From positions 62,001 to 126,000 of the forward strand of contig NZ_LMRW01000025.1 of assembly GCF_001428255.1 (NCBI RefSeq): 64,000 bases of DNA. The letters run 5' to 3'. Shown here piece after piece: positions 2,101 to 55,906 of this stretch. Position numbers and translations under genes: made by a program. The DNA is from Agromyces sp. Soil535 (GTDB taxonomy: Bacteria; Actinomycetota; Actinomycetes; Actinomycetales; Microbacteriaceae). A model generated the notes under the pieces. That model was not told the DNA's origin. It was given only the letters and a program-made list of their open reading frames with translations, and did no database searches. Position 1 is the stretch's first letter; each line of letters starts with the position of its first letter.

Positions 2101-2273
2101 CAGAATTCAGGAAACGCCGCGGCATCCGCTCACTCGCGGCTTTTCGCAATTCAGGAGCGGTTGCCGGGGTCGGAGCCGGACGCCACGCGTTCTACCCTCT
2201 GACGGAACGGCACCGCCCCAAGACTCCTGAATTCTGCACGGGGCACTGCCACAGTGTTCCTGAATCCTGCAAG
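2101..2273. promoter_or_regulatory. Four-copy TCCTGAAT motif array upstream of the putrescine oxidase gene
   Basis: A motif close to TCCTGAATTCTGCA occurs four times: on the minus strand at 2101-2113 and 2146-2157, and on the plus strand at 2224-2239 and 2257-2273. The first two copies face the last two. The plus copies are 33 bp apart and the nearer one ends 20 bp before the putrescine oxidase start. This arrangement is what one expects for cooperative binding by a dimeric regulator. The cognate factor is unknown and no regulator gene is adjacent. Confidence 0.5.
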
Positions 2274-2293
2274 ACGAACGAAAGACAAGAGAC

Positions 2294-3658
2294 ATGGAAC
2301 GCATCGACTGCGACGTCGTGATCGTGGGTGCCGGGGCATCCGGCCTCACCGCCGCCACCCGACTGAAGGACGCCGGCCGCTCGGTCGTGGTGCTCGAGGC
2401 GCGCGACCGCGTCGGCGGACGGCTCTGGACCGACGACGTCGACGGCGCCATGCTCGAGATCGGCGGCCAGTGGGTCTCGCCCGACCAGGACGCGCTCATC
2501 GAGACGCTCGACGCGCTCGGCCTCGAGACCTACCCGCGGTATCGCGAGGGCGTGAACATCTACATCGGCCCCGACGGCGAGCTCAAGAAGTTCGAGGGCG
2601 AGATCTTCCCCGTTCCGCCGGCCACTGAGCACGAGATCGTCACCCTCATCGACAAGCTCGACGCACTCGTCGCCGAGATCGACCCCGACCGCCCCTGGGA
2701 TCACCCGCAGGCGAAGGACCTCGACGAGATCTCGTTCTCACGCTGGCTCGAGACGCAGACCGACGACGAGGAGGCGCGCGAGAACATCGGCATGTTCATC
2801 GCGGGCGCCATGCTCACCAAGCCCGCGCACGCGTTCTCCGCCCTGCAGGCGCTGCTGATGGCGGCATCCGCAGGCTCGTTCTCGAACCTCGTCGACGCCG
2901 ACTTCATCCTCGACCGCCGCGTCGTCGGCGGCCTGCAGCAGGTGCCGCTGCTCCTCGCCGAGCGGCTCGGCGGTGGGGTGCGCCCCGGCCAGGCGGTGCG
3001 CACGCTGCGCTGGCACCCGGATGCCTCGGAGCGGGGCGTCGTCGCGGTGACCGACGACGTCGAGGTGCACGCGAAGCACGTGGTGCTCGCGGTGCCGCCG
3101 ATCCTCATCAGCCGCATCTCCTACGACCCACCGCTGCCGCGCCGGCAGCAGCAGCTGCACCAGCACCTCTCGATGGGCCTCGTCATCAAGGTGCACGCCG
3201 TCTACGAGACGCCGTTCTGGCGCGAAGCCGGCCTCTCGGGCACCGCGTTCAGCCCCTACGAGCTCGTGCACGAGGCCTACGACAACACCAACCACGAGGA
3301 TCCGCGCGGCACGCTCGTGGGCTTCGTCGCCGACGAGGAGGCGGACGGCGTCTTCTCGCTGAGCGCCGAGGACCGCAAGGAGCGGATCCTCGAGTCGCTC
3401 TCGCACTACTACGGCGAGCAGGCGCTGCATCCGGTCGTCTACTACGAGAGCGACTGGGGCTCGGAGGAGTGGACCCGTGGCGCCTACGCGGCGAGCTTCG
3501 ACATGGGCGGCCTCGCGCGCTACGGCGCAGACCTGCGCACGCCCGTGGGGCCCATCCACTTCTCGTGCAGCGACATGGCCGGCAAGGGCTACCAGCACGT
3601 GGACGGCGCCATCCGCGTCGGTCGCGAGGTCGCCGACGAGATCCTCGCCGCGTCGTGA
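2294..3658 (+). CDS. puo: Putrescine oxidase (flavin amine oxidase)
   Basis: This 454-residue FAD amine oxidase matches, as recalled, actinobacterial putrescine oxidases (Rhodococcus, Kocuria) along its whole length. The enzyme converts putrescine, oxygen and water to 4-aminobutanal, ammonia and hydrogen peroxide in the cytoplasm. Visible features are the N-terminal dinucleotide fold VVIVGAGASGL (Gly12, Gly14, Gly17), DRVGGRLW, the substrate-cavity stretch GGQWVSPDQ, and a C-terminal flavin segment with SDWGSEEWTRGAYA, HFSCSD and GYQHVDGAI. It lacks a signal peptide. The upstream semialdehyde dehydrogenase would process its product after further oxidation. Regulation is probably through the TCCTGAAT array before the gene. 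Confidence 0.9.
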   Translation: MERIDCDVVIVGAGASGLTAATRLKDAGRSVVVLEARDRVGGRLWTDDVDGAMLEIGGQWVSPDQDALIETLDALGLETYPRYREGVNIYIGPDGELKKFEGEIFPVPPATEHEIVTLIDKLDALVAEIDPDRPWDHPQAKDLDEISFSRWLETQTDDEEARENIGMFIAGAMLTKPAHAFSALQALLMAASAGSFSNLVDADFILDRRVVGGLQQVPLLLAERLGGGVRPGQAVRTLRWHPDASERGVVAVTDDVEVHAKHVVLAVPPILISRISYDPPLPRRQQQLHQHLSMGLVIKVHAVYETPFWREAGLSGTAFSPYELVHEAYDNTNHEDPRGTLVGFVADEEADGVFSLSAEDRKERILESLSHYYGEQALHPVVYYESDWGSEEWTRGAYAASFDMGGLARYGADLRTPVGPIHFSCSDMAGKGYQHVDGAIRVGREVADEILAAS

Positions 3659-48124: not shown

Positions 48125-48206
48125 GCGGCGCGCCGCGTCGATGCTTCGATGCGAGCGATCGCGTCGGGCGTGGACGTCGGGTGGTGCCTGGGCACATCAT
48201 GGGTGC

Positions 48207-49334
48207 ATGACGACGAACGTCATGATCCTCGGGGCCGGCTTCGGCGGCTTGGAACTGGCCAGCGCGCTGTCGGAGCGCCTCTCGGGCGAGGTCGAGGTCA
48301 CCCTCGTCGACCAGCACGACGCGTTCGTCTTCGGATACTCGAAGCTCGAGATCCTCTTCGGACACCAGACTACGGATCAGGTGCGTATTCCGTACCGCGG
48401 GATCACCAGGCCGGGCGTGGAGTTCCGGCAGGAACGCGTGCTGACGATCGACCCGGCGACGCGACACGTCGTCACCGATGTCGCGGCGTACGACCCCGAC
48501 GTGATCGTCGTGGCCCTCGGCGCCGACTACGACCTGGCTGCGACGCCGGGATTCGTCGAAGGAGGCTTCGAGTACTACTCGGTCGCCGGTGCCGAGCGGC
48601 TTCGTGACGAGTTGGATGTGTTCGGCGGGGGCAGGGTGCTGCTCGCCGTCCTCTCCATCCCCTTCAAGTGCCCGCCCGCGCCATACGAGGCGATGTTGCT
48701 GCTCCACGACCGGCTCGTCGCCCGCGGACTCCGCGACGCCAGCGAACTCCACGTGGTCACCCCGCAGCGGGCGCCGGTGCCCGTCTCCCCGGAGACCTCC
48801 GCCGCACTCGAGCGGGCGATGGCGGAACGCGGGATCGCGTACACGAAGCGACACCGCGTCTACGGGATCGACCCCGACGCACGGGTCGCGCATTTCAAGG
48901 ACCACGACGAGCCGTTCGACCTGTTCATCGGCATTCCGGTGCACAAGGTCCCCGACGTGCTCGTCGAGGCAGGCCTGACCGAGGACGGCTGGGTCAAGGT
49001 GGACCCGCGCACCCTCGAGACGCCGTACCCAGGGGTGTACGCCCTCGGCGACTGCGCTGAGACCGGCATACCCAAGGCAGGGACGTTCGCGGAGAGCGAC
49101 GCCCGCGTCGTCGCCGACGAGATCGCGAGCACGATCCTCGGCGGTGGCGTGCACGCATCGGGCGGAACCGGGCTCTGCTTCGTGGAGTTCGGCAACGGCG
49201 AGCTCGGCCGCGTCGACGTGGACTTCCACGCACGAGGCGGGCCGACCGCCCCGCTCCTCGGCCCGGCGCCTGCGTACGCGGCCGAGAAGGCCGAGTTCGG
49301 CGCCGTGCGGCGGGCGCGCTGGTTCGGCGTGTGA
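48207..49334 (+). CDS. FAD-dependent oxidoreductase, NDH-2/sulfide:quinone reductase-like
   Basis: A 375-residue two-dinucleotide-fold flavoprotein: N-terminal VMILGAGFGGLELASALSE, a second segment VALGADYDLAATPGF, and a C-terminal FAD contact PGVYALGDCAETGIPKAGTFAESDARVVADEI. The layout is that of NDH-2 and sulfide:quinone or flavocytochrome-c sulfide reductases. The cysteine pair of sulfide reductases is not evident: a lone cysteine in PFKCPPAPYEA is at one expected place. Electron donor and acceptor remain open. No transmembrane segment is seen. Confidence 0.75.
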   Translation: MTTNVMILGAGFGGLELASALSERLSGEVEVTLVDQHDAFVFGYSKLEILFGHQTTDQVRIPYRGITRPGVEFRQERVLTIDPATRHVVTDVAAYDPDVIVVALGADYDLAATPGFVEGGFEYYSVAGAERLRDELDVFGGGRVLLAVLSIPFKCPPAPYEAMLLLHDRLVARGLRDASELHVVTPQRAPVPVSPETSAALERAMAERGIAYTKRHRVYGIDPDARVAHFKDHDEPFDLFIGIPVHKVPDVLVEAGLTEDGWVKVDPRTLETPYPGVYALGDCAETGIPKAGTFAESDARVVADEIASTILGGGVHASGGTGLCFVEFGNGELGRVDVDFHARGGPTAPLLGPAPAYAAEKAEFGAVRRARWFGV

Positions 49335-49426: not shown

Positions 49427-50176
49427 ATGCCCGCTCGCAGCCCCGGAGTCACGGTTCGGGGCCCGAGGGTGAGGCAGGCGCTCGGGATCTTCCGGCTGCT
49501 CGTCGCCGCGCTCGAGGTCGTGGCCATCATCGGGAACTTCCAGTACGTGCTCGGGTTCCGCTTCTTCGCCACGACGAACTTCTTCAGCTACTTCACCGTG
49601 CAGTCGGCGCTGGCGGCGGTCATCACGCTCGCGATCGCCGGGTGGTTCGCACTGCGGCGGCCCCGCGATCCCGCGTGGCTCGGCATCCTTCGCACGATGG
49701 TGACCGTCTACGTGCTCGTCTCCGGTCTCGTCTTCGGGCTCATCGTCGCGCAGGCCTCGACGCGCGACTATCGCGTCGACGTGCCGTGGTCGGACACCCT
49801 CCTCCATTTCGTGGTGCCGGCGCTCGCCGTCGTGGCGTGGACGACCGACGCGGTGCTCGCCGTGAATCCTCCCGTGCCGTGGTCGACGGTCGGCTGGGTA
49901 CTCGTGTACCCGTCGCTGTGGCTCGCCTACACCCTCCTCCGGGGTTCCGACATCGGCTGGTACCCGTACTTCTTCCTCGACGAGGCGCAGGTCGGCGGGC
50001 TCCTCGGCGTCGCGCTCTACTGCGCGCTCGTGCTCGGGATCTTCGTCTGCCTGACCGCCGCGCTCGTCGCGGTCAACCGCGCGCTGTGGCGTATGGCCCG
50101 AGATCGGCGAGCACGGATTCGAGAAACGCCGGATCGTCGAGTTCCTCGAGTCGAGTCGCCTGTCTCGCAGCGATGA
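49427..50176 (+). CDS. Pr6Pr-like six-helix membrane protein
   Basis: A 249-residue membrane protein with six or seven hydrophobic segments and motifs of the Pr6Pr family (FFSYFTVQS near the second helix, WSDTLLHFVVPALAVV, and WVLVYPSLWLAYTLLRG). Function is unknown. The last ~30 residues are Arg-rich, and 104 bp of the coding end overlap, tail to tail, with the permuted flavin oxidase gene on the other strand. Either the overlap is real or the final stretch was gained by loss of an earlier stop. Confidence 0.8.
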   Translation: MPARSPGVTVRGPRVRQALGIFRLLVAALEVVAIIGNFQYVLGFRFFATTNFFSYFTVQSALAAVITLAIAGWFALRRPRDPAWLGILRTMVTVYVLVSGLVFGLIVAQASTRDYRVDVPWSDTLLHFVVPALAVVAWTTDAVLAVNPPVPWSTVGWVLVYPSLWLAYTLLRGSDIGWYPYFFLDEAQVGGLLGVALYCALVLGIFVCLTAALVAVNRALWRMARDRRARIRETPDRRVPRVESPVSQR

Positions 50177-51554
50177 CCCCGAGAAGCACGGGGTCGCCGG
50201 TCGGGGCGCCGACGTCGATCCACGCTCCGACCGACGTCGGTTCACCGACGACCGTGAGCACGTCGGGAGTTGCGGAGGGGGCGTACGGGGCATCCGCTCG
50301 CCAGAAGGCGGAGTCGAAACGCAGCCAGACGGTGTCGACGACGCCCATGCCCAGCACCGAGATCGCACGCTGGTGCAGGAGCGGCAGGGTGGGGGAGAAA
50401 CGCAGCGTGTCGGTCTTCAGCACGCCGAGCGGTACCGTGACGATCGCGCGATCGACGGTCAGTGACTCGCCGGAGTCGAGCCGGAGGCTCACCCGCCGAT
50501 CGTCGTAGGCGATGCGGGTGACGACACTCGAGACGGCGACGTCGACGGATGCCGCGAGCGCGTCGACGTAGTCGGCGAGGCGGCCGGTGACGAGTCGCTT
50601 CGGCTCGCCGAGCTGAGCGAGATCGATGCCGCTTGCCGAGAGCTGATTGGTCGTCGCGCCGGTGGCCGGCTCGACGGCGCTCCCGATCGTGTGGACGAGC
50701 CAGTCCGCGGGGCTGACCCCTTCGGCATCGGGGGTGTTCGACAGCGGGACCACGCCCGCACCCACGAGCGCGGCGGCGAGCGACACGTCACCACGCTGCG
50801 TCGCCGCCCACGCCTGGGCCGCGGCGATCGCGTCGGGTCCCGTCGACGGGATCGGCACCACGACTCCCGCCACCGTGCGCGCCTCGACGACGGCGGCGAA
50901 CGGCCGGGTGAAGACGGACGCCTCGACGAGTCCGTCGAGCAGTGCGCCATCTTCCCCGACGAAGACGGCGCCGAGTTCGATCGGCTGGTCGAAGTCCGCA
51001 TCGTCGACCGAGTCGATGCGACCGCCGAGGCGCTCGCGCGCCTCCAGGACGACCACCTCGAAGCCTGCGTCGACGAGTACTCGCGCGGCCGTGAGCCCGG
51101 CGAGACCGGCGCCCACGATGCCGACGCGCTCGCCGGGTTCGCCGATCTGCTGGATGGCGGCCGCCTGGCGCAGTCCGCTCGCGTGCGCGCCGACGAGCGT
51201 GCCCGGGGCATCCGGATCGCAGGCCTCGCCCGCGAAGAACAGCCGGTCGGCGACCGGATCGGCGAGCGTCTCCCGGAGTTCGGGAGTCGCGCCGACGGCG
51301 TCGAAGCTGAACGCGCCGCGGGCGAACGGGTCCGCCCCCCAGCGCGAGCGACGCATGGCCGCCGGGAGCGGCACGCCGTTCGCGGGCGGCGTCGGGGTGG
51401 GCGTCGGTGTCGGGCTCGTGGTCGGCGTGGGCGAGGGCGTCGGACTCGGCTGCGGCCAGACGCAACTCGACAGCGTGACGGCGGCGATCCCCGAGAGCGA
51501 CGCGGCGAGGAAGGTTCGCCGGGCCATGCCGCCGGACGTCGCCCGAGAGTCCAT
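50073..51554 (-). CDS. Lipoprotein flavin amine oxidase with circularly permuted domain order
   Basis: A 493-residue exported flavoprotein. ARRTFLAASLSGIAAVTLSSC looks like a Tat-type lipoprotein signal (twin Arg at 12-13, lipobox Cys31). A Pro/Thr linker follows (34-57). Residues ~67-135 then carry the segment that normally ends flavin amine oxidases: RWGADPFARGAFSF, DRLFFAGEACDPDAPGTLVGAH and SGLRQAA. Only after this comes the usual N-terminal FAD fold, VGIVGAGLAGLTAARVL (Gly148, Gly150, Gly153) and ERLGGRI. The chain stops at VLADLGPYATARG, where relatives continue into the WG-DPFARG segment. This is a circular permutation. The substrate is unknown. The mRNA looks leaderless. Confidence 0.85.
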   Translation of the reverse strand: MDSRATSGGMARRTFLAASLSGIAAVTLSSCVWPQPSPTPSPTPTTSPTPTPTPTPPANGVPLPAAMRRSRWGADPFARGAFSFDAVGATPELRETLADPVADRLFFAGEACDPDAPGTLVGAHASGLRQAAAIQQIGEPGERVGIVGAGLAGLTAARVLVDAGFEVVVLEARERLGGRIDSVDDADFDQPIELGAVFVGEDGALLDGLVEASVFTRPFAAVVEARTVAGVVVPIPSTGPDAIAAAQAWAATQRGDVSLAAALVGAGVVPLSNTPDAEGVSPADWLVHTIGSAVEPATGATTNQLSASGIDLAQLGEPKRLVTGRLADYVDALAASVDVAVSSVVTRIAYDDRRVSLRLDSGESLTVDRAIVTVPLGVLKTDTLRFSPTLPLLHQRAISVLGMGVVDTVWLRFDSAFWRADAPYAPSATPDVLTVVGEPTSVGAWIDVGAPTGDPVLLGVIAARQATRLEELDDPAFLESVLADLGPYATARG

Positions 51555-51585: not shown

Positions 51586-52791
51586 TCAGCGAGCCGCCGG
51601 CACGCCGGCAGCACGGAACGCGGCCGCGAACCGCGGCAGGCTGGCTTCGATCGTCTCCATCGTGGCGGTCAGCGAGATGCGGAAGAAGCCGGGCGTCTCG
51701 AACATCCCTCCCGGAAGGACGAGCACCCCCTCGCGGTCGAGTGCCTGCGCGAAGGCGGCGTCGTCCGTGAGCGGCGACTCGGGGAACAGGTAGAACGTGC
51801 CTTCGGGAACCGTGACCCGGTATCCGATCTCACGCAGTGCCGCGACCATCACGTCGCGCTTGCGCTGGAAGAGCGGGATGTCGAACGCGAGCGTCTCGAG
51901 GCGCGGCAGCGCGTACTGCATCGACACGTTGGGGAAGAGCCATCCGCCTGCGATCTGCGCCGCCTCGATCGCATCCCGGAAGACCTCGCGGCCGGGCATC
52001 GTCGGCGGGAGAGCGAGGTACCCGATGCGCTCGCCCGGCGACAGCAGGGTCTTGCCGTAGCTGTAGGCGAGGAAGCTCCACGGGTAGAACTCGACGGGGC
52101 TGCGGAAGCGCGCACCGTCGAAGACGATGCGGTTGTAGGCCTCGTCCGAGATGAGGAAGATGCGGCGCCCGTTGCGCTCCGACGCCTCGTCGAGGATCGT
52201 CGCCAGGCGCTCCAGCGTCGCGGGCGGGTAGATCCGTCCGGTGGGGTTGTTGGGGCTGTTGACGATCACGATGCGCGTGCGCGGCGTGATGGCCGCCGCA
52301 ATGGCCTCGAGGTCGAGGTCCAGCGTCTCGCGGTCGATCGACACCTTCACGGGCACGAGGCCCGCCTCAAGCACGAGCGGCTCGTAGAGGAACCACGGCG
52401 GCAGGCTGTAGACCACCTCGTCGCCCGGATCGCCGACGATCTTCAGCGCGGTCGAGATCGCCGTGAACCCGCCGGTCGTGAGGTGCACGTCGTCCGTCTC
52501 GAACGGGATGTCGAGGTGACGGCGCAGGGAGTCGGTCGCGGCCTCGATCGCCTTCGCGTCGCCGAGGTTGTACGCGAACCACAGTTCGTGCTGCGGGATC
52601 AGCGACTCGCGCAGGATCTCGACATAGGCCTCGGACGGCGGGTCGTGCGGATCGCCGAACGTGAAGTCGAGGACGCCCGGTTCGTGTCGTCGGCTCTGGT
52701 AGCCGGAGATCCGGAGGAAGTCGAAGAGCAGTTGGAACGGCGTCGCGCCGGCGACCGTCGCGATCCGATCGGAAGCGAGTCGGTCGTCCAT
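51586..52791 (-). CDS. PLP-dependent aminotransferase, class I/II
   Basis: A 401-residue fold-type I aminotransferase. TFGDPHDPPSEAY starts the core, followed by TTGGFTAI, NSPNNPTGRIYP, SDEAYNRIVF and the PLP lysine Lys247 in YSYGKTLLSPGERIGYLA. The C-terminal arginine is in FFRISLTA. Three ATG codons are possible; 52791 is chosen because GAAGGG lies 6 nt before it. The specific amino donor is unknown. It sits between the class III aminotransferase and the permuted oxidase, all leftward. Confidence 0.85.
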   Translation of the reverse strand: MDDRLASDRIATVAGATPFQLLFDFLRISGYQSRRHEPGVLDFTFGDPHDPPSEAYVEILRESLIPQHELWFAYNLGDAKAIEAATDSLRRHLDIPFETDDVHLTTGGFTAISTALKIVGDPGDEVVYSLPPWFLYEPLVLEAGLVPVKVSIDRETLDLDLEAIAAAITPRTRIVIVNSPNNPTGRIYPPATLERLATILDEASERNGRRIFLISDEAYNRIVFDGARFRSPVEFYPWSFLAYSYGKTLLSPGERIGYLALPPTMPGREVFRDAIEAAQIAGGWLFPNVSMQYALPRLETLAFDIPLFQRKRDVMVAALREIGYRVTVPEGTFYLFPESPLTDDAAFAQALDREGVLVLPGGMFETPGFFRISLTATMETIEASLPRFAAAFRAAGVPAAR

Positions 52792-52884
52792 GAGCATCCC
52801 TTCGGACATGCCGGATGCTCCGTGGACACGAAGATCCCGCGAGTGCCGCCCATCGTACTCCGCGGCACGAACGCCGGCCCGGGC

Positions 52885-54297
52885 TCAGGCGACGTGCGTG
52901 TCGGCGACCGAGAGCGCCTCGTCGATGATGTCGAGGCCGAGTACGAGCTCGTCCTCCGTGATCACGAGCGGCGGCGCGACGTGCAGGCGGTTGAAGTGCA
53001 CGAACGGCCAGAGGCCTGCCTGCTTGCACGCGGCAGCCACGGCCGCCATCGGCGCGGCATCCGCTCCACCGGCGTTGAACGGCACGAGCGGCTCGCGGGT
53101 CTCGCGATCGCGCACGAGCTCGATCGCCCAGAACAGGCCGAGGCCCCGCACATCGCCGACCGATGGATGCCGCTCGGCCATCGCTCGCAGGCGCGGCGCC
53201 ACGACTCGAGCGCCGAGGTCGCGCACGCGCTCGAAGATGCCGTCGCGCTCGAAGACCTCGAACGTGGCGACACCCAGGGCGCAGGCGAGCGGATGCCCGG
53301 AGTACGTGAGCCCGCCCTGGAACGCGACCGTGTCGAAGTGCGAGGCGATGCGCTGCGAGATCACGACGCCGCCGAGCGGCACGTAGCCGGAGTTCACGCC
53401 CTTCGCGAAGGTGATGAGGTCGGGGGTGACGCCGAAGTGGTTCACCGCGAACCACTCGCCGATGCGGCCGAAGCCCACCATGACCTCGTCGGCGATGTAG
53501 ACGATGCCGTACTTGTCGGCGAGCGCCCGCACGCCCTGCAGGTAGCCGGGCGGCGGCACGAGCACGCCGTTCGTGCCGACGACGGTCTCGATGATGATCG
53601 CCGCGATCGTGGCGGCTCCCTCGAGCGTGATGACCTGCTCCAGGTGCGCGAGAGCGCGTTCGGTCTCCGCGACCTCCGACGAGGTGTGGAACGACGAGCG
53701 GTACGGGTACGGCCCGAGGAAGTGCGCGACCGACCCGTCCGAGGGCTCGTTCGCCCAGCGGCGCGGGTCGCCAGTGAGCGAGATCGCCGTCGCCGTGCCA
53801 CCGTGGTAGCTGCGGTACATCGACAGCACCTTGCGGCGACCGGTGACCGCGCGGGCCATGCGCACCGCGTACTCGTTGGCGTCGGCGCCGCCGTTGGTGA
53901 AGAACACCTTGTCGAGGTCGCCGGGCGCCACCTCGGCGATACGACGTGCGAGCTCACCGCGCACGTCGTTCGCCATCGACGGCTGGATCGTCGCGAGACG
54001 CCCGGCCTGCTGCTGGATCGCGGCGACGAGGTCGGGGTGCTGGTGACCGAGGTTGAGGTTCACGAGCTGCGAGCTGAAGTCGAGGTACGCGTTGCCCGCG
54101 TAGTCCCAGAACGTCGAGCCCTCGCCCGCCGCGACGGGCAGCGGGTCGATGAGCGCCTGCGCGCTCCACGAGTGGAACACGTGCGCGCGGTCGTCGGCGC
54201 GCACTAGGGCGTCGGCGTCGAGGTCGGGCAGCGGATGCCGCGTGCCGCGCCGGTCGGCGTACGCGGCATCCGTCGCGGTGGTGAGTGTGTCGGTCAT
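52885..54297 (-). CDS. Class III aminotransferase (omega-amino acid type)
   Basis: A 470-residue PLP enzyme of the class III family: LNLGHQHPDLVAAIQQQ, FFTNGGADANEYAVRMAR, SYHGGTATAISLTGD, ADEVMVGFGRIGEWFAV and the PLP lysine Lys299 in TFAKGVNSGYVPLGGV. Such enzymes transaminate beta-alanine, GABA, putrescine or related terminal amines with pyruvate or 2-oxoglutarate. Next to mmsA, a beta-alanine to malonate-semialdehyde step is the best inference. The 124 bp before the start contain a complete paired palindromic repeat. Confidence 0.87.
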   Translation of the reverse strand: MTDTLTTATDAAYADRRGTRHPLPDLDADALVRADDRAHVFHSWSAQALIDPLPVAAGEGSTFWDYAGNAYLDFSSQLVNLNLGHQHPDLVAAIQQQAGRLATIQPSMANDVRGELARRIAEVAPGDLDKVFFTNGGADANEYAVRMARAVTGRRKVLSMYRSYHGGTATAISLTGDPRRWANEPSDGSVAHFLGPYPYRSSFHTSSEVAETERALAHLEQVITLEGAATIAAIIIETVVGTNGVLVPPPGYLQGVRALADKYGIVYIADEVMVGFGRIGEWFAVNHFGVTPDLITFAKGVNSGYVPLGGVVISQRIASHFDTVAFQGGLTYSGHPLACALGVATFEVFERDGIFERVRDLGARVVAPRLRAMAERHPSVGDVRGLGLFWAIELVRDRETREPLVPFNAGGADAAPMAAVAAACKQAGLWPFVHFNRLHVAPPLVITEDELVLGLDIIDEALSVADTHVA

Positions 54298-54320
54298 GTC
54301 GTGGTCCTCTCGCAAAGAGT

Positions 54321-54412
54321 GCGGGTTGAGGAGGGCGCTCCGCGCCCGTCTCGAAACCCAGTCGTTCGTCGGCCGGGTTTCGAGACGGCGCTGGCGCGCC
54401 TCCTCAACCCGC
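54321..54412. repeat. Paired palindromic repeat, copy 2
   Basis: Left unit 54321-54359 and inverse right unit 54375-54412, each with an internal stem (GGGCGC-TCC-GCGCCC in the left one). It fills the gap between the class III aminotransferase and mmsA. Here it overlaps no coding end. The pair can fold into one large cruciform or hairpin. Confidence 0.88.
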
Positions 54413-54421
54413 AGCAACGGG

Positions 54422-55906
54422 TCAGTGGTTGGACGGGAAGCCCAGGTTGATCTGCGACTCGGACGGGTTCGGCCAGCGCGTGGTCACGACCTTGGAGCGG
54501 GTGTAGAAGTGCACCGACTCGGGGCCGTAGATGTGCGAGTCGCCGAACAGCGAGTTCTTCCAGCCGCCGAATGAGTACGCGCCGATGGGCACGGGGATCG
54601 GCACGTTGACGCCGACCATTCCGACCTCGATGTCGAACTCGAACTGGCGAGCCGTGCCGCCGTCGCGGGTGAAGATCGCGGTGCCGTTCGCGAAGCTGTT
54701 GGCGTTGATGAGCGCGACCGCCTCCTCGTAGGACTCGACGCGCACGACCGAGAGCACAGGGCCGAAGATCTCGTCGTCGTACACCTTCATGCCGGGCTTC
54801 ACGTGGTCGACGAGCGAGACGCCGACGAAGAACCCGTCGCCGTCGAACTGCTGCGTCGTGCCGTCGACGACGACGGTCGCACCCTCGGCCGCGGCGCCGG
54901 TCACGTAGGAGGCGACCTTGTCGCGGTGCTCGCGCGTGATGAGCGGACCCATCTCGCTCGCGGCATCCGTGCCGTCGCCGATCTTCAGCGCACGCATGCG
55001 CGAGCGCACCGCCTCGACGAGGTCGTCGGCGACGTCACCGACCGCGACGAGCACCGAGACGGCCATGCAGCGCTCGCCGGCCGAGCCGTACGCCGCCGAG
55101 ACCGCGGCGTCCGCTGCGCCCTCGAGGTCGGCGTCGGGCATGACGACCATGTGGTTCTTCGCGCCGCCGAGGGCCTGCACGCGCTTGCCGTTCGCTGAGG
55201 CGCGCTCGTAGATCGACTTCGCGATGGGCGTCGAGCCGACGAACGAGACGGCGCGCACCTCGGGGGAGTCGAGGATCGTGTCGACCGCGACCTTGTCGCC
55301 GTGCACGACGTTCAGCACGCCGTCGGGAAGCCCGGCCTCCTGGAACAGCTTCGCGAGGAAGATCGCCGCGCTCGGGTCCTTCTCCGAGGGCTTCAGCACC
55401 ACGGTGTTGCCGCACGCGATCGCCGAGGCGACCATCCACAGCGGAACCATCACGGGGAAGTTGAAGGGCGTGATCGCCCCGACCACGCCGACCGGCTGCT
55501 TCAGCGAGTGCACGTCGACGCCGCGCGCGACCTGCTCGGAGTGCTCGCCCTTCAGCAGGTGCACGAGCCCGGCGGCGAACTCCACGTTCTCGATGCCGCG
55601 CGAGATCTCGCCCGCGGCATCCGAGAGCACCTTGCCGTGCTCGCTGGTGAGGATCGCGGCGAGCTCGCCCTGGCGCTCGACGAGCAGGTGGCGCAGCTTG
55701 AAGAACACGTCGGCGCGCCTGATGAGGCCGGTGGCGCGCCAGCCCGGCAGTGCAGCGGATGCCGCGGCGATCGCCTGCTCCACCTCGCCGACCGACGCGA
55801 ACGCCACCTCGTGCTGCTGCACGCCGGTGGCCGGGTTGAAGACCGGGCCGGTGCGCTCCGCGTCGGCGACCTCGCGGCCGTTGATGAAGTGTCGGATGAG
55901 GCTCAT
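54422..55906 (-). CDS. mmsA: CoA-acylating methylmalonate-semialdehyde dehydrogenase
   Basis: A 494-residue aldehyde dehydrogenase that converts methylmalonate or malonate semialdehyde to propionyl- or acetyl-CoA. The MmsA-specific features are ITPFNFPVMVPLWMV, LGGAKNHMVVMPDADLE, where the usual general-base Glu is absent, and the catalytic Cys280 in GSAGERCMAVSV. EIFGPVLSVVR and GWKNSLFGD follow. With the omega-aminotransferase next to it this makes a beta-alanine/valine catabolic unit, probably under the divergent PucR-type regulator. Confidence 0.93.
   Translation of the reverse strand: MSLIRHFINGREVADAERTGPVFNPATGVQQHEVAFASVGEVEQAIAAASAALPGWRATGLIRRADVFFKLRHLLVERQGELAAILTSEHGKVLSDAAGEISRGIENVEFAAGLVHLLKGEHSEQVARGVDVHSLKQPVGVVGAITPFNFPVMVPLWMVASAIACGNTVVLKPSEKDPSAAIFLAKLFQEAGLPDGVLNVVHGDKVAVDTILDSPEVRAVSFVGSTPIAKSIYERASANGKRVQALGGAKNHMVVMPDADLEGAADAAVSAAYGSAGERCMAVSVLVAVGDVADDLVEAVRSRMRALKIGDGTDAASEMGPLITREHRDKVASYVTGAAAEGATVVVDGTTQQFDGDGFFVGVSLVDHVKPGMKVYDDEIFGPVLSVVRVESYEEAVALINANSFANGTAIFTRDGGTARQFEFDIEVGMVGVNVPIPVPIGAYSFGGWKNSLFGDSHIYGPESVHFYTRSKVVTTRWPNPSESQINLGFPSNH

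Follow-up and report, generated by a model that had tools for sequence, protein, structure and literature searches.

We found that the window, the whole 64,000-nucleotide stretch of Agromyces DNA analysed here, encodes a homologue of the flavin amine oxidases in which the segment that ends the chain in conventional relatives stands ahead of the Rossmann start, and that the same order recurs across the Actinomycetota. We think it likely (probability roughly 0.6) that this 493-residue protein is a circularly permuted, FAD-dependent envelope protein with changed chemistry, most likely acting in one process with a Pr6Pr-family membrane protein encoded beside it. The gene and its parts, in which Met1 is invariant in nine Agromyces alignment rows, are as follows.

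50073..51554, (-) strand: whole gene of the permuted, putative FAD protein, 493 amino acids and stop; open frame confirmed
51462..51554, (-) strand: residues 1-31, Tat-like signal (MARRTFL) and lipobox LSSC, from the sequence; motif in 69/69 sequences of the clade
51375..51461, (-) strand: residues 32-60, Pro/Thr linker, from sequence and alignment
51147..51374, (-) strand: residues 61-136, moved segment (WGADPFARG, RLFFAGEA, PGT.GA..SG), from PDB sequence search, profiles and comparison with the oxidase L167
51129..51146, (-) strand: residues 137-142, new junction, from profile matches
50910..51128, (-) strand: residues 143-215, Rossmann FAD-binding start (GAGLAG, E171, GGR), from Pfam, PDB sequence search and alignment
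50076..50909, (-) strand: residues 216-493, substrate and FAD core with the new C-terminus, from PDB sequence search and structure model
51309..51311, (-) strand: codon of Phe82, at the LSD1 Tyr761 position, from PDB-search alignment coordinates
50331..50333, (-) strand: codon of Thr408, at the flavin-N5 lysine position (LSD2 Lys661), from the PDB-search alignment

Segment order and predicted fold

The best chain in a PDB sequence search was LSD2, which matched the window protein in three pieces and in rotated order: residues 61-134 aligned with positions 700-773 of the 776-residue LSD2 chain, residues 143-188 with 338-381 (the Rossmann start), and residues 294-485 with 497-691. The moved piece alone matched LSD2 with an i-Evalue of 2.9e-8. 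Among the matches listed, the best stretch of the LSD1 chains (whole-sequence E 8e-20 to 8e-19) was residues 59-134, which fell on positions 738-825 of LSD1 (852-residue chain 2xaf). A comparison with L167, an actinobacterial oxidase of conventional order whose source belongs to a different family of the class, gave a similar picture: residues 62-134 matched positions 431-503 (52% identity, E 1e-19) and residues 141-485 matched positions 93-428 (31% identity, E 7e-26). Thus, the closing segment (residues 61-136), which is C-terminal in conventional relatives, stands ahead of the Rossmann start, and the chain ends at the former joint, where the chains of relatives enter that segment. Both features had been claimed in the original prediction, made from the DNA letters and their translations, and both were borne out by these alignments; its placement of the segment at residues ~67-135 was right in location, but the homologous piece begins nearer to residue 61 than to residue 67. 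Profiles found no second, C-terminal copy of the segment, an arrangement that the prediction had named as counting against a permutation.

The protein scored 173.4 bits against Pfam Amino_oxidase (PF01593; gathering score 19.8), in three stretches, and it carries the superfamily motifs (Rossmann GxGxxG, ExR, GGR, FAGE and PGT..GA). Since its segment order is rotated, we regard it as a PF01593 homologue without the canonical architecture, in which the Rossmann start comes first and the closing segment last. None of the NCBIfam models listed claims the protein, the best match being HpnE at 63.1 against a cut-off of 283.05.

A first structure model, built from nine Agromyces rows, was discarded (pLDDT 40.6). 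The second, built from 16 alignment rows of which seven were conventional proteins, reached a pLDDT of 67.6 and a pTM of 0.66. Positions 83-436 of this model (residues 140-493 of the protein) superposed on LSD1 277-739 with Z 21.3 and an rmsd of 3.4 over 324 aligned residues, and the best Foldseek match was LSD2 (E 7.9e-19); the core is therefore modelled with the LSD1/PAO fold. The structure aligners that we used keep the order of the chain, so this match covers the core without the moved piece. The structural check that the original prediction had proposed is thus answered in part, for the core. The two kinds of evidence tile LSD1 with an overlap of two residues, 277-739 by core structure and 738-825 by moved-piece sequence. 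The model shows the moved piece as a strand at 48-50 followed by a helix at 63-80, which lead into the first Rossmann strand (86-90); the helix blocks have a pLDDT of 75-93.

We propose that the closing segment would be made first, and that its strand (RLFFAGE) and helix (PGT..GA..SG) would lead through a short turn straight into strand one of the Rossmann domain, as a strand-helix-strand step, the chain then terminating at the old joint. In Rossmann-type domains a strand-helix-strand step is a normal crossover, and this would account for the shortness of the junction; the gap between the two profile matches is three residues in 68 of 69 clade sequences.

Distribution and origin of the permuted order

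Full-length colinear relatives (58-69%) are found in eight named Agromyces records (L004-L011). By a hand reading of the search, 57 of the 60 genus genomes have the permuted gene: a single match crosses the junction in 55, the gene gives two adjoining matches in one (G042), and in one (G021) it is split between contigs. The three genomes without it were G011 (840 contigs), G017 (2.8 Mb) and G050 (77% complete). Using a query across the junction (residues 56-230) and counting only a single match that runs from query position 9 or earlier to position 141 or later, we found the permuted gene in at least 133 of 398 family genomes and under at least 31 of 85 genus labels (hand count). An order-level search of 297 genomes added two further genera in two families (G493, G560; G561, G635), and a search of 396 genomes of the phylum added G813, G909, G1038, G864, G883 and G1062. 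A profile search of 345 class genomes gave junction-spanning matches in 24 (hand count), of which 12 belong to other families (f119, f121, f112, f116, f105 and f21). Every permuted frame examined among the fetched loci, with both parts located by profile, contained exactly one closing segment. Thus, the permuted order extends to other families and classes of Actinomycetota; the homologues of like order that the original prediction had proposed to seek do exist, and the genus and family counts support its claim of a stable permutation.

These counts also dispose of the idea that two segments of an ordinary gene were swapped by an error of assembly, annotation or cloning, the first of which the original prediction had itself raised against the permutation. 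We found nothing in favour of such a swap and give it practically no credence, since the same order stands in a single open frame in many genomes, including those of L004-L011.

In a genome scan outside Actinomycetota, only the conventional order was seen where both parts were present, and viral contigs had the conventional order in every frame in which both parts were found. A plasmid search gave 14 records with a match, none of which spans 80% of the query in one place.

We built trees on both parts set in one order, and these need two or three changes of order. An AU test did not reject a single clade of all permuted rows (p 0.267 for 54 rows and 0.287 for 59 rows); a single origin of the permutation is compatible with the trees, yet unproven by them. 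Tandem copies are a classical raw material for permutation through duplication and truncation, and we saw no intermediate of that kind among the fetched loci. We did observe tandem conventional-order amine-oxidase frames on the same strand in two genomes of genus g176 (L070, 2-643 and 1691-3121; L170, 1823-3265 and 4340-4999), one frame of each pair being cut by the fetched stretch. Separately, another frame in the window, at ~2264-3655 on the (+) strand (L002, 1450-2841), matches the family weakly and in conventional order (22.6 bits for the closing segment) and has a long branch on the tree.

Active site, envelope signal and neighbouring genes

We compared residues in 92 distinct permuted sequences (69 from the window clade and 23 others, a split drawn after the tree was seen) and 26 conventional ones. 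Position 615 of the LSD2 chain, which is Lys661 given an offset of 46 residues and which we take to be the catalytic lysine over flavin N5, aligned with Thr408. A lysine is found there in only 14/69 clade sequences (Thr in 28, Val in 9, Leu in 6, Ser in 5 and others in 7), compared to 22/23 other permuted and 24/26 conventional sequences, and it changed at least six times on the tree of permuted rows. Likewise, LSD1 Tyr761 aligned with Phe82, which is aromatic and has no hydroxyl. Of the 69 clade members, 35 carry Phe at this position, 4 carry Tyr and the remaining 30 have another residue; Tyr or Trp occurs in these 4/69, in 23/23 other permuted sequences and, as Tyr, in 25/26 conventional ones. 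We had considered Phe82 as a sign of lost activity, but dropped this idea, since maize polyamine oxidase has Phe at the same position. For this reason, only the loss of the lysine and the 30 non-aromatic members count against classical chemistry. An independent-pairs test of lysine loss against aromatic loss had too few pairs.

The residues on the FAD side are nearly invariant among permuted sequences (E171 80/81, E110 80/81, W72 81/81), and dN/dS was 0.03-0.38 in 13 pairs, in both parts of the protein and with Thr408 pairs included, indicating purifying selection. Taken together with the loss of the lysine, these results point to a maintained protein that very likely binds FAD and probably performs standard amine-oxidase chemistry poorly. 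The label flavin amine oxidase that the original prediction applied thus holds in the sense of homology, given the Pfam score, but is not supported in its catalytic sense, given Thr408 and the scarcity of the lysine in the clade. Since most of the clade has lost the N5 lysine and has replaced the Tyr761-type residue, we favour a changed chemistry, which might be slow reaction with O2 or a dehydrogenase activity on another substrate, although the clade members that keep the lysine count against this view. The enzymes in which the permutation arose probably still had the normal lysine; we suggest that the lysine was then lost in most members of the Pr6Pr-paired Microbacteriaceae clade, where the Tyr761-type residue would also have been replaced, often by Phe.

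The same residues could be read as those of a structural or binding protein, in which the retained fold and FAD site would serve stability or the binding of a ligand, with no redox catalysis. The repeated changes of the lysine, together with the kept FAD-side residues and purifying selection, would fit such a protein, but near-invariance on the FAD side suggests that flavin chemistry still matters, and we consider such a non-catalytic role improbable.

We then turn to the signal at the N-terminus. Residues 1-31 of the window protein (MDSRATSGGMARRTFLAASLSGIAAVTLSSC) have RR at 12-13 and LSSC at 28-31, and at the level of motifs twin arginine and lipobox occur together in all 69 clade sequences, in agreement with the Tat-like lipoprotein signal and Pro/Thr linker originally described. 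The window protein is accordingly supported as a predicted exported, lipid-anchored lipoprotein: it would fold with FAD inside the cell and leave by the Tat route, and a lipid on Cys31 would hold it outside the membrane through the Pro/Thr linker. Among the 23 other permuted sequences, 11 have both RR and the lipobox (one, L155, with an uncertain start), and members of families f119, f121 and f112 have a Tat-like signal without a lipobox. Conventional-order relatives with Tat-like signals also exist, with a lipobox in L167 and L170, a lipobox-like site in L138 and no lipobox in L172, and export may thus predate the rotation. L138, an IMG/VR contig in the viral collection, encodes a conventional-order amine oxidase with its Tat-like, lipoprotein-like signal. 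A divergent permuted subgroup (L057, L058, L059 and L060), whose moved segment carries SRWGEDPWSRGSWSLIG or close variants, keeps the Lys and Trp; it has no convincing export signal, and its members are possibly cytoplasmic permuted oxidases.

The genes around the permuted gene are as follows.

49427..50176, (+) strand: Pr6Pr-family membrane protein (NF038065, 109.1 bits against 30)
51586..52809, (-) strand: class I/II aminotransferase, just upstream; beside the permuted gene in 3/8 named Agromyces loci
52885..54417, (-) strand: class III aminotransferase (PRK06062 subfamily); in 8/8 named Agromyces loci
54422..55906, (-) strand: methylmalonate-semialdehyde dehydrogenase-type (MMSDH) gene, TIGR01722; in 8/8 named Agromyces loci

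The Pr6Pr gene is convergent with the permuted gene and overlaps its 3' end by 104 bases. Of 43 family loci, 39 have a convergent Pr6Pr gene on the 3' side, within 170 bases in 37 and at 579 and 755 bases in the other two. The four loci without an adjoining Pr6Pr are L088, L105, L104 and L106 (flanks of 32, 498, 2,211 and 3,020 bases); L105, L104 and L106, or their copies, fall outside the main clade on the tree. Pr6Pr was beside the permuted gene in 0/10 loci from other families, whose genomes have no Pr6Pr at all in eight cases and carry it elsewhere in two (G493 and G560), and it was not found in 18 further loci. Genome-wide, Pr6Pr is present in 26/26 family genomes with a junction-spanning hit and in 36/40 without one. 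Thus, Pr6Pr itself is common across the family, and it is the adjacency alone that stands out. Given these 36 genomes, and given that convergent genes share no transcript, the pairing may be positional. No other neighbour family was shared by more than 3/53 loci, and twenty chosen neighbour frames in other families showed no common theme. For Pr6Pr, a PDB search gave nothing at an E-value of 10 or less and Pfam gave one weak match, to CNNM (E 0.026, below the cut-off), and our literature search found no paper on it. A flavoprotein is also encoded in the window at 48201-49334 on the (+) strand, its best model being the type III sulfide:quinone reductase of the selenoprotein subtype, well below cut-off.

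The upstream genes bear on whether the protein is permuted but otherwise an ordinary envelope amine oxidase, which would oxidise external amines with O2, tolerate Thr408 and, in Agromyces, pass its products to the transaminases and the semialdehyde dehydrogenase. The class III aminotransferase and MMSDH-type genes of all eight named Agromyces loci would suit this role, as would the Amino_oxidase score far above the gathering value, the 14 clade members with lysine and the 35 with Phe at position 82. However, the lysine is absent from the window protein and from 55/69 of the clade, and the aminotransferase and MMSDH neighbours were seen next to the permuted gene neither in L061 and L062, which come from the same genus, nor in the other genera examined. 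We therefore rejected the catabolic operon as a general context and consider ordinary oxidase function unlikely. We continue to favour an FAD-dependent protein of changed chemistry that acts with Pr6Pr. More tentatively, and with rather less confidence than in that reading, we suggest a phylum-wide permuted branch of the LSD1/polyamine-oxidase group, whose Microbacteriaceae members would be lipid-anchored, non-classical FAD proteins serving with Pr6Pr in an undescribed envelope process.

Comparison with known flavin oxidases

In the open-licence literature that we searched, we found no report of natural circular permutation in flavin amine oxidases, nor of exported permuted amine oxidases. Circular permutation is known in another flavin fold, in a different enzyme class (PMC13327496). 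Flavin amine oxidases are much studied, and a large set of naturally permuted members makes it possible to ask how a two-part FAD domain tolerates new chain ends, and whether it matters that the membrane anchor is attached to the closing segment instead of the Rossmann strand. The clade that lost the lysine, beside relatives that keep it, offers paired proteins for testing the role of the flavin-N5 lysine. Moreover, a sequence-based label of amine oxidase may be wrong for much of the window clade.

The closest known proteins, by both sequence and fold, are the amine oxidase domains of LSD1 and LSD2 (KDM1A and KDM1B), which have the FAD motifs in common with the window protein. They differ in that the order is rotated here and in that the positions of Lys661 and Tyr761 are Thr and Phe. 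LSD1 also has tower and SWIRM domains, both of which the window protein lacks. Maize polyamine oxidase (1b37) and bacterial putrescine and monoamine oxidases share the fold (Z 18 to 20), but in the conventional order; Lys300 of the maize enzyme, which we take to be its catalytic lysine, has no counterpart in the window protein, and K300M mutants were among the structure matches. The conventional-order oxidases L167, L170 and L172 of Actinomycetota also have a Tat-like signal, with a lipobox in two of the three. In these proteins, however, the segment is C-terminal, even though that of L167 is 52% identical to the moved segment of the window protein.
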